From: Candidatus Planktophila lacus
GTDB lineage: Bacteria; Actinomycetota; Actinomycetes; Nanopelagicales; Nanopelagicaceae
Length of the DNA stretch: 64,000 nucleotides
Direction: 5' to 3'
Assembly: GCF_002287925.1 (NCBI RefSeq)
Contig: NZ_CP016769.1
Span: 124,001-188,000 of the forward strand
Part shown: piece by piece, positions 6,680 through 31,267 of the stretch
How positions within the stretch are numbered: the stretch's first letter is position 1
How the letters are laid out: every line of letters starts with the position of its first letter
The notes under the pieces: model-generated
The model's database searches: none
Told to the model about the DNA's origin: nothing
The model's input: the letters and a program-made list of their open reading frames with translations, nothing else
Program-made: the position numbers and the translations under genes

Positions 6680-7351
6680 ATGACAAAAGGGTTCGACGCA
6701 GAAGATTTAGCAAGAAGTGCTGCACTTGGCGATGCCGAAAAGCCATCGCAAGTCGGTAACTTCATCTCTGTCGAATTCGATGACGAAGATCGCGTTGCAA
6801 GTTATTTATTCGACGCAGATATTCAGGGTTATAAAGGTTGGCGCTGGTGCGTCACTGTTGCAAAGGTAGATGCATCAGCGCAACCAACCGTTTGTGATGT
6901 TGTTGTTCTTCCTGGTCCAGATTCACTTATGGCACCAGAATGGATCGAATATAAAGATCGCATCTTGCCTGAAGATATTCAGCCGGGTGTAATTGTGCCA
7001 AGCGTTCTAGATGACACTCGTTTAGTCCCTGGTGCAAACGCACTTATTCAAGATGAAGATTTAGATGCGGCGCAGATTTACGAACTTGGTTTAGCTCGTC
7101 CACGTGTACTTTCAATTGAAGGTCGCGATCAAGCAAGTAAGCGTTGGTACACAGGCGATCGCGGACCAAATACGCCGCTGGCGCAGAACGCACCAAAGCC
7201 TTGCAACTCATGCGGATTCTTTATTCCTATCGCAGGTTCGCTACGCGCCTCATTTGGCGTATGTGCAAATGCGATCGCTCCAGATGATGCCCGCGTAGTT
7301 TCAGTCGATCACGGCTGCGGCGCGCACTCTGAAGCCACGCTCCCTAATTAA
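6680..7351 (+). CDS. DUF3027 family protein with cysteine cluster
   Basis: A 223-residue protein of the actinobacterial DUF3027 family. The conserved core GYKGWRWCVTVAKVD is followed by VVLPGPDSLMAPEWIEY. The C-terminal 40 residues hold CNSCGF, then VCANA and HGCGAH, a spacing that could bind a metal such as zinc. Members usually sit beside a cold-shock gene, as here (next gene at 7447). Function is unknown. The 5-nt gap to groEL suggests it is coexpressed in the heat-shock operon. Confidence 0.85.
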   Translation: MTKGFDAEDLARSAALGDAEKPSQVGNFISVEFDDEDRVASYLFDADIQGYKGWRWCVTVAKVDASAQPTVCDVVVLPGPDSLMAPEWIEYKDRILPEDIQPGVIVPSVLDDTRLVPGANALIQDEDLDAAQIYELGLARPRVLSIEGRDQASKRWYTGDRGPNTPLAQNAPKPCNSCGFFIPIAGSLRASFGVCANAIAPDDARVVSVDHGCGAHSEATLPN

Positions 7352-7352
7352 T

Positions 7353-7368
7353 AGGGGTTCCCGCCCCT
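7353..7368 (+). terminator. possible terminator after groEL-DUF3027
   Basis: A short hairpin AGGGG-ttcccg-CCCCT directly after the DUF3027 stop, followed by CTTTGCTT rather than a clear run of T. It could end the groEL transcript, but the weak T tract leaves this uncertain. Confidence 0.35.
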
Positions 7369-7446
7369 CTTTGCTTGCGATAAACTTGGATCCTGCCCGC
7401 GCCCCTGCGGCTACACGAGTACTGAAATTCTTATAAGGAGAACGCC

Positions 7447-7830
7447 ATGCCTACAGGTCGCGTTAAATGGTTTAGCCTCGAAAAGGGTTTCGGATTTATC
7501 TCAAATGATGAAGGCGAAGATGTTTATCTTGCTGCATCATCTCTTCCAGAAGGCGTTCCTTCGGTAAAGCCTGGCACAAAGGTTGAGTTCAGCATCATCG
7601 ATAGCCGTAAAGGTCCACAAGCGATGTCGATCCATATCGTTGAGGCACCGGTTTCACTCGCGGAAAATTCACGAGTCAATAACGATGACCTTGCTGCGAT
7701 GATCGAAGACACAATTAAGATTTTGGATAAAGTCGGAAATGGTTTGCGCCATGGACGTCATCCATCTGGCACCGATGCAGAACGCCTTGGTCGCGTTTTG
7801 CGCGGTATTGCTAGCCAGCTAGAAGCTTAA
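7447..7830 (+). CDS. cold-shock domain protein with C-terminal extension
   Basis: A 127-residue protein. Residues 1-66 are a cold-shock domain with GRVKWFSLEKGFGFIS; the RNP1 motif KGFGFI (13-18) is intact. The RNP2 position reads DVYLAASSL where classic CspA proteins have a VFVH core, so one phenylalanine and the histidine are replaced. Residues 67-127 are a conserved actinobacterial extension of unknown role. It probably binds single-stranded nucleic acid. A TAAGGAG ribosome site precedes the ATG. Confidence 0.9.
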   Translation: MPTGRVKWFSLEKGFGFISNDEGEDVYLAASSLPEGVPSVKPGTKVEFSIIDSRKGPQAMSIHIVEAPVSLAENSRVNNDDLAAMIEDTIKILDKVGNGLRHGRHPSGTDAERLGRVLRGIASQLEA

Positions 7831-7841
7831 ATACTTCTGAT

Positions 7842-8042
7842 CTAAATGCCGCTGCGCGCTGCGCGGCGCTTTGAGTAACGAATACCCCATGCACCAAGTG
7901 CTGCACCTGCAACGCATGTCCAAATTAATTTGCTCTCTGCACCTGTGATCGCAAAATATAAAGCTGCGATAACCCACGCAATGGTGCCTAAAGTGATTAG
8001 AGTTACGACAGACTTGATTTCTGAATTATTGTTTAAAACCAC
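7842..8042 (-). CDS. DUF2530-like small membrane protein
   Basis: A 66-residue protein when read from a GTG at 8042. An open frame runs further upstream but lies opposite the start of the MFS gene at 8061, so the shorter form is chosen. Two hydrophobic stretches (LITLGTIAWVIAALYFAI and IWTCVAGAALGAWGI) predict two membrane helices ending in a basic SKRRAARS tail. Length and pattern resemble DUF2530, which often sits next to DUF3027 and MFS genes in actinobacteria. Function unknown; the start is uncertain. Confidence 0.6.
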   Translation of the reverse strand: MVLNNNSEIKSVVTLITLGTIAWVIAALYFAITGAESKLIWTCVAGAALGAWGIRYSKRRAARSGI

Positions 8043-28305: not shown

Positions 28306-28863
28306 CTAAGAATTGAATCTAAGAATTAGATCTGGTGTTGCTGCAGCGTTTAACGGCACATCAAATTCTTCGCGAGGTAAATCAACGCTAGAAATCTCAT
28401 CTGGATGAATCAATCCAATACTCCATGCAGAAAGTTTCGGAAGTGCGCGATCGTAGAAGCCGCCGCCTTGTCCTAAGCGATATCCAGATCTATCAATGCG
28501 TAGCGCTGGTACAACAATTAAATTGATCACTGAAAGATCGGTAAGCGCGGCACCGGTTGGTTCAAGAAGCTGTTTTGATAATTTGCTTGGTGCAAGTTGA
28601 TCGCTCGCTCCGCTCCAACGCACCCATGCGAGATCGACTCCGTTTACTCGCGGCAGGTAAAGATCTTTGCCGCTCTTCAATAACGCTTCATTTAGCTCTT
28701 GCGTATTTGGTTCATCGCCATAAGAGATATAACTGGCGATAGCGCTTGCCTTAGAAAATTCTGAAGATGTAGCAAGGTGTGAAAAAGAGTGATCTAGATA
28801 TCTTTCGTGGCGTTCAAAGCGATAGCGAGTGCGAAGTTCAGACTTCTCGCTTGTTGCACTCAT
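28306..28863 (-). CDS. 5-formyltetrahydrofolate cyclo-ligase
   Basis: A 185-residue protein of the MTHFS family with the signature YRLGQGGGFYDRAL near residue 130 and ASYISYGDEPNT near residue 45. It converts 5-formyl-THF to 5,10-methenyl-THF with ATP. It is divergent from the glp-like gene (45 bp apart), as is usual around the actinobacterial glp locus. Confidence 0.92.
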   Translation of the reverse strand: MSATSEKSELRTRYRFERHERYLDHSFSHLATSSEFSKASAIASYISYGDEPNTQELNEALLKSGKDLYLPRVNGVDLAWVRWSGASDQLAPSKLSKQLLEPTGAALTDLSVINLIVVPALRIDRSGYRLGQGGGFYDRALPKLSAWSIGLIHPDEISSVDLPREEFDVPLNAAATPDLILRFNS

Positions 28864-28908: not shown

Positions 28909-29835
28909 ATGTCAGACCGCACTCGTGTAGATGAGTTTCTCTCCTCTCTATTAGCGATCTGTCGACCACTCGAAGCGTTCGAGATGTCCCTGCTAGATGC
29001 GCATGGCGCAACTCTTGCCGAGGATATTTATGCCGGAGAACGTCTAGTTCTCAAATCCGGTTCCAGAATTCGTTCAACTCAGATCGGACTTGCCGCATCT
29101 ATTGGGCGCGATCATTTGCCTACGCGTCCGCACCCGCGCGTTGTTGTGCTTTCAGCAGGTCCAGATTTAGTTGAACCAGGTAAAGAGTTAAAGGCCGGCG
29201 AAGAGTACGAGACTAATTCGTGGTTGCTCACTACTGCAGTACGTGAAGTTGGAGCAGTTGCATATCGCGTCCACACAATTCCTGACGACGAAGCTCAACT
29301 TCAGGCGGTTATTGAAGATCAATTAGTTCGCGCTGATTTAATTATTATCAGTGGAGAACGCCACGATGATTCATTTGATTTGATTACCCGCACACTTTCG
29401 GCAATGGGTGAAATAAACACCGTCGATATCGCTATCGAATCTAGCGGCCGCCATAACTTTGGCGTTATTGGTCCGGATAAGACTCCGGTCGTAACTCTGC
29501 CAGGTGATCCAGTCGCCGCTTACATCTCATTTGAACTTTTCATCCGGCCGATGATTCGCACAATGCTTGGTGCGGCAACAATTCATCGCCCATCGATTAA
29601 GGCAAAGCTGGAGAAAGCAATTACCTCTTCTGGCGGATATCGTTCTTATATCCGCGCAGTCTTATCTGAAGATGGAAAATCAGTTCTCCCATTGTTATCT
29701 CAAGGTTCAAGTACTCAAGATGAACAAGCCACTCTCTCTGATGCCAACGCATTTATTGCAGTTCCAGAAGGTGATCTAAATATCACCGCAGGAAGTGATG
29801 TCACAGTTGTCGTGCTCGAGCGCCGTTATATATAA
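28909..29835 (+). CDS. glp: Glp-type MoeA/gephyrin-like protein, shortened
   Basis: A 308-residue protein read from ATG 28909 (MSDRTRVDEFLSS). It has MoeA features: TRVDEFLSSLLAICRPL and LLDAHGATLAEDIYA at the start, a MoCF-type domain with RPHPRVVVLSAGPDLVEPG, and the late TLPGDPVAAYISFELFIRP. Normal MoeA is about 400 residues; the segment with FDNSAMDGYA and most of domain II is missing. The active-site SGGVSxG-type loop reads ISGERHDDSFD. Both suggest it is not a molybdenum enzyme. Its neighbours (5-FCL, RimJ, a GlpR-like membrane protein) match the Glp cell-division locus described in corynebacteria, where Glp binds FtsZ. I infer a division role. Confidence 0.75.
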   Translation: MSDRTRVDEFLSSLLAICRPLEAFEMSLLDAHGATLAEDIYAGERLVLKSGSRIRSTQIGLAASIGRDHLPTRPHPRVVVLSAGPDLVEPGKELKAGEEYETNSWLLTTAVREVGAVAYRVHTIPDDEAQLQAVIEDQLVRADLIIISGERHDDSFDLITRTLSAMGEINTVDIAIESSGRHNFGVIGPDKTPVVTLPGDPVAAYISFELFIRPMIRTMLGAATIHRPSIKAKLEKAITSSGGYRSYIRAVLSEDGKSVLPLLSQGSSTQDEQATLSDANAFIAVPEGDLNITAGSDVTVVVLERRYI

Positions 29836-29855
29836 GTATTGATATAGGTCTAAAT

Positions 29856-30440
29856 ATGTCTGAGCACTGGCCGATTTTCTTAACTGATGGCGAGTTGCAA
29901 TTACGCCCGCTGCGAATCCGCGATCGCCGACGTTGGCTTCATGTTCGCTCTGAAAATAAAGATTGGCTCTCTGATTGGGAGGCCACCCTTCCGAAAGTTC
30001 CGGGAGAGAAGAACTCCAGCCAACTCCCTTCATTTAGCGAGATGGTGAGATGGCATCGCCGTGAAGGGCGCAACGGACGCTCATACTCATTAGCTATCTG
30101 GCAGATTAACGAGCAAGGGCGCAACCTAATCGGGCAGATAACGATGGGCGGTGTTTCATATGGAGCGATGCGCGGGGCGCATATCGGCTATTGGATAGAT
30201 CGCGCATATGCCAACCGTGGATTTACAACACAAGCGGTAAATATGTTGACCCGCTTTGGCTTTGAAGAACTGGCCTTGCATCGAATCGAAATAAATATTC
30301 GCCCCGAAAATGCACCTTCGATAAAGGTCGCCGAGAAAGCTGGATATATTTTTGAAGGGCTACGTCCTAGGTATTTACATATCGATGGAAAATGGCGTGA
30401 CCATCACTGTTATGTGAAAGAAAATTTCCAGGTCATTTAA
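29856..30440 (+). CDS. GNAT acetyltransferase, RimJ/RimL type
   Basis: A 194-residue GNAT protein. The start LQLRPLRIRDRRRWLHVRSEN is followed by GAHIGYWIDRAYANRGFTTQ (acetyl-CoA-binding loop) and ALHRIEINIRPENAPSIKVAEKAGY, typical of the RimJ N-acetyltransferases. Targets are unknown; in E. coli RimJ acetylates ribosomal protein S5. It sits between the glp-like gene and the GlpR-like gene, as in other actinobacteria. Confidence 0.85.
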   Translation: MSEHWPIFLTDGELQLRPLRIRDRRRWLHVRSENKDWLSDWEATLPKVPGEKNSSQLPSFSEMVRWHRREGRNGRSYSLAIWQINEQGRNLIGQITMGGVSYGAMRGAHIGYWIDRAYANRGFTTQAVNMLTRFGFEELALHRIEINIRPENAPSIKVAEKAGYIFEGLRPRYLHIDGKWRDHHCYVKENFQVI

Positions 30441-30490
30441 GCCTCTAAATCCACAGGGTGGCAGGGGTGCTCCCCTAACCTTTACCTATC

Positions 30491-31267
30491 ATGGCTTCTG
30501 GAATTATTTATCTTTCGATAATCGGCATGTGGGTGGCTTACTTCCTCCCACGCTGGGTGCACGATCGAAACGAGTTCTCTGGAAAAAATGTAGAGAGATA
30601 TAAAAGCGCGCTTCGCATAGTTGCAGAAAATTCTCCAGGTGGAAGTTCTGGAACCGGGGTAATTCACACCGACCTAGATCGAGAAGCAAAAATTGCCCAA
30701 CAACTTATGCGCCGCAGAATTATCTTCTTATTAATTATTATCGCTTTCGTAATGACGACAGTAGGTGCGATTATGCAAACTCTTGCAATTTCATTTATAG
30801 GAGTGCCAGTTGTTGGGTTAGTTCTCTACTTGGTACATGTTCGCCACCAAACAACAACCGACCGAGCGCGTCGACGTCGCGTTACTCAGATTCATCGCAC
30901 AACAGTTGGTGTCTCATCAACAAATTTGGCAGATGTTGTTGCACCGAAACCTTCAACTGAACATTGGATTCCACTTTCCGAACGCGAACTTACTGGTGTA
31001 ACGCTTTTGCCTAAGGGAACAGCAGCTGCTCGCGGAGAATGGCAACCAAACTCTGTGCCGGTTCCAACTTATGTAAATGCTCCTAAGGCGATTACTCCAA
31101 AGCGAGTAATTGATCTGACAACACCTGGCCAGTGGAGTGAAGAACAAGAGCGCCTAGAACGCGAAGCCCTTGCCGCGGCTGCGCCATCGCGCGATGAAAT
31201 ATTTGATCAACAACTTGCAGATGAAGCTGTTGAGCGCATGAAGCGCAACCGCGCCGCTAACGAATAG
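30491..31267 (+). CDS. GlpR-like membrane protein (cell division receptor candidate)
   Basis: A 258-residue protein. One short helix at residues 4-19 (GIIYLSIIGMWVAYFLP), followed by RWVHDRNEF, opens the conserved N-terminus. Then come a basic cytosolic linker, two close helices at about 76-95 and 98-117, an Arg-rich patch TTDRARRRRV and a long charged tail. The topology and position match the membrane receptor (GlpR) that pairs with Glp in corynebacteria. Not to be confused with the glycerol repressor GlpR. Function is inferred from context. Confidence 0.65.
   Translation: MASGIIYLSIIGMWVAYFLPRWVHDRNEFSGKNVERYKSALRIVAENSPGGSSGTGVIHTDLDREAKIAQQLMRRRIIFLLIIIAFVMTTVGAIMQTLAISFIGVPVVGLVLYLVHVRHQTTTDRARRRRVTQIHRTTVGVSSTNLADVVAPKPSTEHWIPLSERELTGVTLLPKGTAAARGEWQPNSVPVPTYVNAPKAITPKRVIDLTTPGQWSEEQERLEREALAAAAPSRDEIFDQQLADEAVERMKRNRAANE

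Follow-up and report, generated by a model that had tools for sequence, protein, structure and literature searches.

A short member of the MoeA family in Planktophila (Nanopelagicaceae) descends from a full-length Glp by what was most likely a single excision of domain II, with a degraded active site and with moaC and mogA lost from the operon. The gene is under strong purifying selection, is constantly accompanied by glpR, and occurs with no detectable DivIVA. The short Glp probably serves as a non-enzymatic, membrane-anchored divisome scaffold paired with GlpR and acting without Wag31. This domain-II-free, Wag31-free form of Glp-GlpR would be a new variant. In the corynebacterial module, FtsZ is joined via Glp and GlpR to Wag31, the elongasome partner of GlpR (PMC10522489).

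Locus Organization and Genomic Context

The window, the whole stretch of DNA analysed, comprises 64 kb, and three plus-strand genes were found at its positions 28909-31267. The first, glp (28909..29835), encodes a gephyrin-like relative of MoeA that is 308 aa long and has no domain II, as identified by alignment, Pfam, phylogenetic tree, and structure search. It is followed by rimJ (29856..30440), encoding a RimJ-type GNAT acetyltransferase whose place between glp and glpR is conserved, and by glpR (30491..31267), encoding a 258-aa membrane protein recognized by homology search and hydrophobic segments. A divergent 5-formyltetrahydrofolate cyclo-ligase gene (28306-28863) is located upstream of glp. 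The genome consists of a single 1.46-Mb contig, is 99.96% complete, and belongs to Planktophila within the Nanopelagicaceae. The gene order, coordinates, and Glp, RimJ, and GlpR identities proposed in the initial annotation were all upheld, and its assignment of the module to a different actinobacterial lineage was correct. As in C. glutamicum (Cgl0883/Cgl0885; PMC10522489), the orthologous Glp-GlpR pair is separated by one gene.

The named relatives belong to Candidatus Planktophila and other Nanopelagicaceae, e.g., strain IMCC26103 with 92% identity. The order and strand of glp-rimJ-glpR were intact in 147 of 157 family loci; of the other 10, nine end too soon to tell and one is a fragment. 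An assembly artefact or chance was ruled out, the short form being present in more than 140 genomes. Several MAGs from lakes that are deposited under the names Bifidobacterium breve or Streptomyces griseus (L184, L185, L208, L212, and L219) encode a Planktophila-type Glp and look mislabelled.

Domain Architecture of the Short Glp

The 308-aa protein departs from the four-domain (I-IV) plan of Glp, since domain II is missing from the alignment. Pfam matches were obtained for MoCF_biosynth (2e-14) and MoeA_C (1e-10), and the MoeA_N match was limited to residues 6-44. The closest solved relative by sequence was C. glutamicum Glp (8bve/8bvf, E 3e-38); the alignment to 8bve spans residues 147-415 of that protein plus the first 37 residues of the short Glp. 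In the alignment, LLDAHGATLA runs straight into EDIYAGERLVLKSGSRI, with domain II wholly gone, and this direct junction indicates that both halves of domain I are retained. The halves meet at A37/E38 (...GATLA/EDIYAG..., 29017..29022, plus strand), and the missing part corresponds approximately to residues 40-143 of C. glutamicum Glp, in which domain II comprises residues 46-145 (PMC10522489). The initial annotation had described most of domain II as lacking; the loss is real, but its extent was understated, because the domain is absent in full.

The AlphaFold2 model of the short Glp (pLDDT 82, pTM 0.81) gave 8bvf, the complex of Glp with the FtsZ C-terminal peptide, as its top structure match (E 6e-25, TMq 0.72), ahead of every other MoeA structure in the search. 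The proline-rich, Glp-like hinge 2 (PTRPHPRV, 29119..29142, plus strand), a signature described in PMC10522489, is the best-conserved stretch among the short forms. Hinge 1 contains one proline (RPLEAF), as in E. coli, and most relatives have two. The Planktophila module shares with that of C. glutamicum a degenerate catalytic loop, a proline-rich hinge 2, and a conserved FtsZ C-terminal peptide, has 8bvf as its best structural match, and differs in having neither domain II, nor M361/Y369, nor a separate MoeA in the genome.

Former Active Site and Molybdenum Cofactor Synthesis

The fold of domains I, III, and IV is shared with the Mo-insertase MoeA (E. coli 1g8l; gephyrin E domain). Unlike 1g8l, the short Glp lacks domain II and with it the catalytic residues D59 and T100 (E. 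coli MoeA numbering), while E188 and K262 are replaced, the GGVSxG loop is changed, and no molybdenum cofactor (Moco) pathway is present in the genome. The importance of the MoeA catalytic residues is well established; the solved MoeA structures matched in the structure search include mutants at several of them. The former Mo-insertase loop, SGGVSVGEADY in E. coli, now reads SGERHDDSFDL (29350..29382, plus strand), so that GERHDD stands in place of GGVSxG, as the initial annotation had stated and the alignment confirmed. Neither MoaA nor a second MoeA or any other PF00994 protein was detected in the 99.96% complete genome, Glp being the sole one, and for this reason Glp cannot serve Moco synthesis. 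The predicted loss of Mo-insertase function was therefore borne out by the missing domain II and catalytic loop, the lack of MoaA, and the single PF00994 protein, and the search for a true moeA in the genome revealed nothing besides the short Glp. Likewise, Kang et al. report that, among four complete acI genomes, just one encodes the Moco pathway and formate dehydrogenase (PMC5301498).

Several active-site positions in the short forms were switched and then fixed: E188 is replaced by D wherever a residue stands there, GNP by GDP in ~88%, and most forms share an acidic loop SGExxDxSFxL. This pattern would suit a re-tooled ligand-binding protein or enzyme, in which the old molybdopterin pocket binds something else. 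Such a reading is improbable, however, given that the pocket has lost domain II on its border, that the loop and the LPGDP region are less conserved in short forms than in full-length Glp, and that no related metabolic genes lie near glp.

Phylogeny and Origin of the Short Form

The Glp tree, built without domain II columns, placed the 308-aa protein in the Glp clade, apart from the MoeA paralogues; the border of this clade is not sharp, with three sequences labelled MoeA falling inside. The 24 short forms constituted one clade (SH-aLRT 100), which joined full-length Glps from two Nanopelagicaceae genera (support 99) inside the Glp group. Since a single short clade is nested with same-family full-length forms, domain II was most likely lost once. 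Among the sampled genera of the family, full-length Glp was found only in g29 (404 aa) and g38 (405 aa), at loci L079 and L092. These proteins share the family and locus of the short Glp and are its nearest full-length relatives in the tree; unlike it, they comprise 404-405 aa, retain 7/7 catalytic residues, and have moaC directly downstream in the order galU-glp-moaC. The complete g29 locus is galU-glp-moaC-mogA-rimJ-glpR, and the g38 contig ends after moaC. No short form was detected in other families among the listed, stronger matches from 268 class genomes outside the family.

Of 151 genomes of the family, 40 encode MoaA; a short Glp is present in many of these, often together with a separate MoeA of ~390 aa. 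The short form is thus independent of Moco loss, and Moco loss as the cause of the domain II loss was ruled out by the coexistence of short Glp with MoaA and MoeA in several genomes. Some Planktophila relatives (L111, L112, and L160-L162) encode a distant ~390-aa MoeA with the loop GGTADGP that branches well away from Glp; this MoeA may be the working insertase or a replacement gained later.

Selection and Conservation

Within the genus, dN/dS was ~0.05 for glp, 0.12 for rimJ, and 0.06-0.10 for glpR; these values are rough owing to high dS in many pairs, but closely related pairs with a dS of 0.1-0.3 gave consistent ratios for glp and glpR. A pseudogene was ruled out by these ratios. A streamlined genome without the Moco pathway might be expected to hold a relic gene decaying after the loss of Moco synthesis, but this explanation has next to no probability, being already contradicted by the low dN/dS of glp, by the presence of a Glp match in 84 of the 85 family genomes of good quality, and by short forms in genomes keeping MoaA and MoeA.

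The mean entropy in the short clade was 0.7-0.8 for domain I, 0.3 for hinge 2, and 1.9 for domain IV. Conservation is thus centred on domain I and the hinge, not on the catalytic loop, and domain IV is the least conserved. In full-length Glps, conservation is higher in domain III than in domain I. The conserved surface of the short Glp draws attention to domain I and the hinge, which may be the side facing GlpR.

GlpR

GlpR was found to be a true homologue, with a blastp value of 7e-21 to a distant class member and an iterated HMM reaching a Mycobacteriales gene at 6e-24; one class locus (L172) gave no GlpR match. The protein has three hydrophobic segments (about 4-22, 75-95, and 97-117) and a tail of 140 aa. 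Its first loop comprises ~50 aa with a pI of ~7, and the tail has a pI of 8.4, so that this GlpR has neither a long acidic IDR1 nor a strongly basic IDR2; the first disordered region of C. glutamicum GlpR is 192 aa long with a pI of 4.05 (PMC10522489). The short, neutral first loop, together with the lack of Wag31 in the genome, sets the Planktophila module apart from the corynebacterial one.

Two stretches of the tail are shared widely. The motif WxPxxVPVPTYVxAPKA..RVIDLTxPGxW (31040..31138, plus strand) is common to many orders of the class, and its IDLTxPGxW part resembles the DLDVPxF peptide of FtsZ and might, speculatively, mimic FtsZ at the dimer groove of Glp. The extreme C-terminus NRAANE (31247..31264, plus strand) follows the pattern R-x-A-[VA]-[NG]-[ED], seen in most orthologues across the class and possibly a short binding motif.

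Division Partners and Proposed Role

The C-terminus of the FtsZ encoded in the same genome is EIDVPDFMK, which closely resembles the pattern of the C. glutamicum peptide, and the retention of this peptide makes FtsZ binding by the short Glp possible. In C. glutamicum Glp, the FtsZ peptide sits on the domain IV hairpin with the signature residues M361 and Y369, and the contacts are partly main-chain (PMC10522489). The counterpart hairpin of the short Glp (29641..29697, plus strand) is poorly conserved and keeps neither residue; the FtsZ-contact residues, whose presence had been named at the outset as a test of the division reading, are thus absent in the case of M361 and Y369. The hydrophobic V338 and L360 are retained in kind (I and L). 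In the compared set, M361 was confined to Corynebacteriales-type Glps and absent from most full-length class Glps; Y369, widespread among full-length Glps of the class, was lost in the short clade, where the hairpin is very variable.

SepF was found in 15/15 family genomes and MreB in all 15 tested. DivIVA/Wag31 (PF05103) was undetected in 26/26 family genomes, including the one studied here, and was found in 14/14 class relatives (12 above the curated cut-off), one of them with a 1.4-Mb genome. In the three family genomes inspected (L145, L146, and L147), ileS directly follows sepF-yggT, where a class relative has divIVA; in L145, this divIVA-less site lies at positions 7232-8016, equal to ~595231-596015 of contig C1 of the genome under study. 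A divergent DivIVA was looked for at the sepF locus of these three genomes, and none was seen; a very divergent coiled-coil replacement elsewhere in the genome is possible. Literature searches yielded nothing useful about DivIVA in Nanopelagicales or about cell division in acI bacteria. Since no DivIVA was found, no partner for GlpR-Wag31 binding is known in the family, and half of the known Glp-GlpR function cannot apply. The match with the corynebacterial module claimed in the initial annotation holds for Glp, RimJ, and GlpR but not for the Wag31 arm.

The loss of M361/Y369, the poorly conserved hairpin, and the absence of DivIVA, along with a retained and syntenic GlpR, are also consistent with a scaffold that has lost FtsZ binding and, still attached to GlpR, takes part in a different membrane process. 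We regard this as unlikely, though a more serious alternative than a re-tooled pocket, because the FtsZ C-terminal peptide is conserved, M361 is missing from most full-length class Glps as well, and the contacts in C. glutamicum are partly main-chain (PMC10522489). The divisome scaffold reading draws on the best match to C. glutamicum Glp, the nested tree, the catalytic residues and moaC kept in the two full-length genera, synteny, dN/dS, the conservation of domain I and the hinge, the FtsZ peptide, SepF, MreB, and the lack of MoaA and of a second MoeA; against it stand the absence of M361/Y369, the weak conservation of domain IV, the missing Wag31, and a GlpR without the long acidic first region. 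According to the divisome scaffold reading, GlpR would anchor a Glp dimer of domains I, III, and IV to the membrane where the cell divides, and the dimer would help to tie FtsZ or an early divisome protein there alongside SepF. The module would have no Wag31 arm, and cell growth would presumably be MreB-directed. Its ancestor probably moonlighted, combining the roles of Mo-insertase and scaffold, and this lineage would have retained the scaffold half only.

The separation of Glp-GlpR from Wag31 in the family makes the role of the pair apart from the elongasome testable with a small natural protein. These abundant freshwater actinobacteria offer a natural test of the division module in a form that lacks both the enzyme half and the polar-growth protein that the module was believed to serve.

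Class-Wide Link Between moaC and an Intact Active Site

At all loci examined, every glp of the rimJ/glpR type adjoining moaC has 7/7 catalytic residues. The arrangement glp-moaC-mogA-rimJ-glpR with an intact active site was found in most of the class, as judged from loci L095-L109 and L164-L173. Each glp without moaC in this set has a degenerate loop, namely in C. glutamicum (where the absence of moaC was judged by published gene numbers), in one genome of the Mycobacteriales, in G047 and G040, and in the short clade. The loss of moaC-mogA coincides with that of the catalytic loop across class loci, and the losses of the loop and moaC fall at no fewer than four separate places on the tree. Because moaC adjacency tracks an intact active site, Glp is suggested to have begun as a moonlighting enzyme, and the conserved residues suggest that it may function as a Mo-insertase across most of the class, with catalysis lost repeatedly, an intact sequence being an indication of activity rather than proof.

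According to PMC11733289, all MoeA-family proteins are highly similar in four domains, bacteria with Glp carry two or more copies of MoeA, and Glp has been repurposed and does not moonlight, the enzymatic role being lost in Glp as a group. The class-wide moaC link suggests a conflict with the last view, and the genome under study is at odds with the two-or-more-copies view, since Glp is its only MoeA-family copy. A three-domain Glp as the sole MoeA-family protein departs from that published picture (PMC11733289). It is tentatively proposed, at slightly less than even confidence, that Glp was ancestrally moonlighting across Actinomycetia as a Mo-insertase in a moaC-mogA operon and a GlpR-bound scaffold, that the two roles were decoupled at least four times, and that Glp was trimmed in Nanopelagicaceae to a domain-II-free scaffold with FtsZ and GlpR, DivIVA being lost and MreB kept. 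The Glp of G040 (L107, family f5, 1.4-Mb genome) has a degenerate loop, IDGAGARTRA, with domain II and DivIVA kept, and is an independent intermediate case in another small-genome family.
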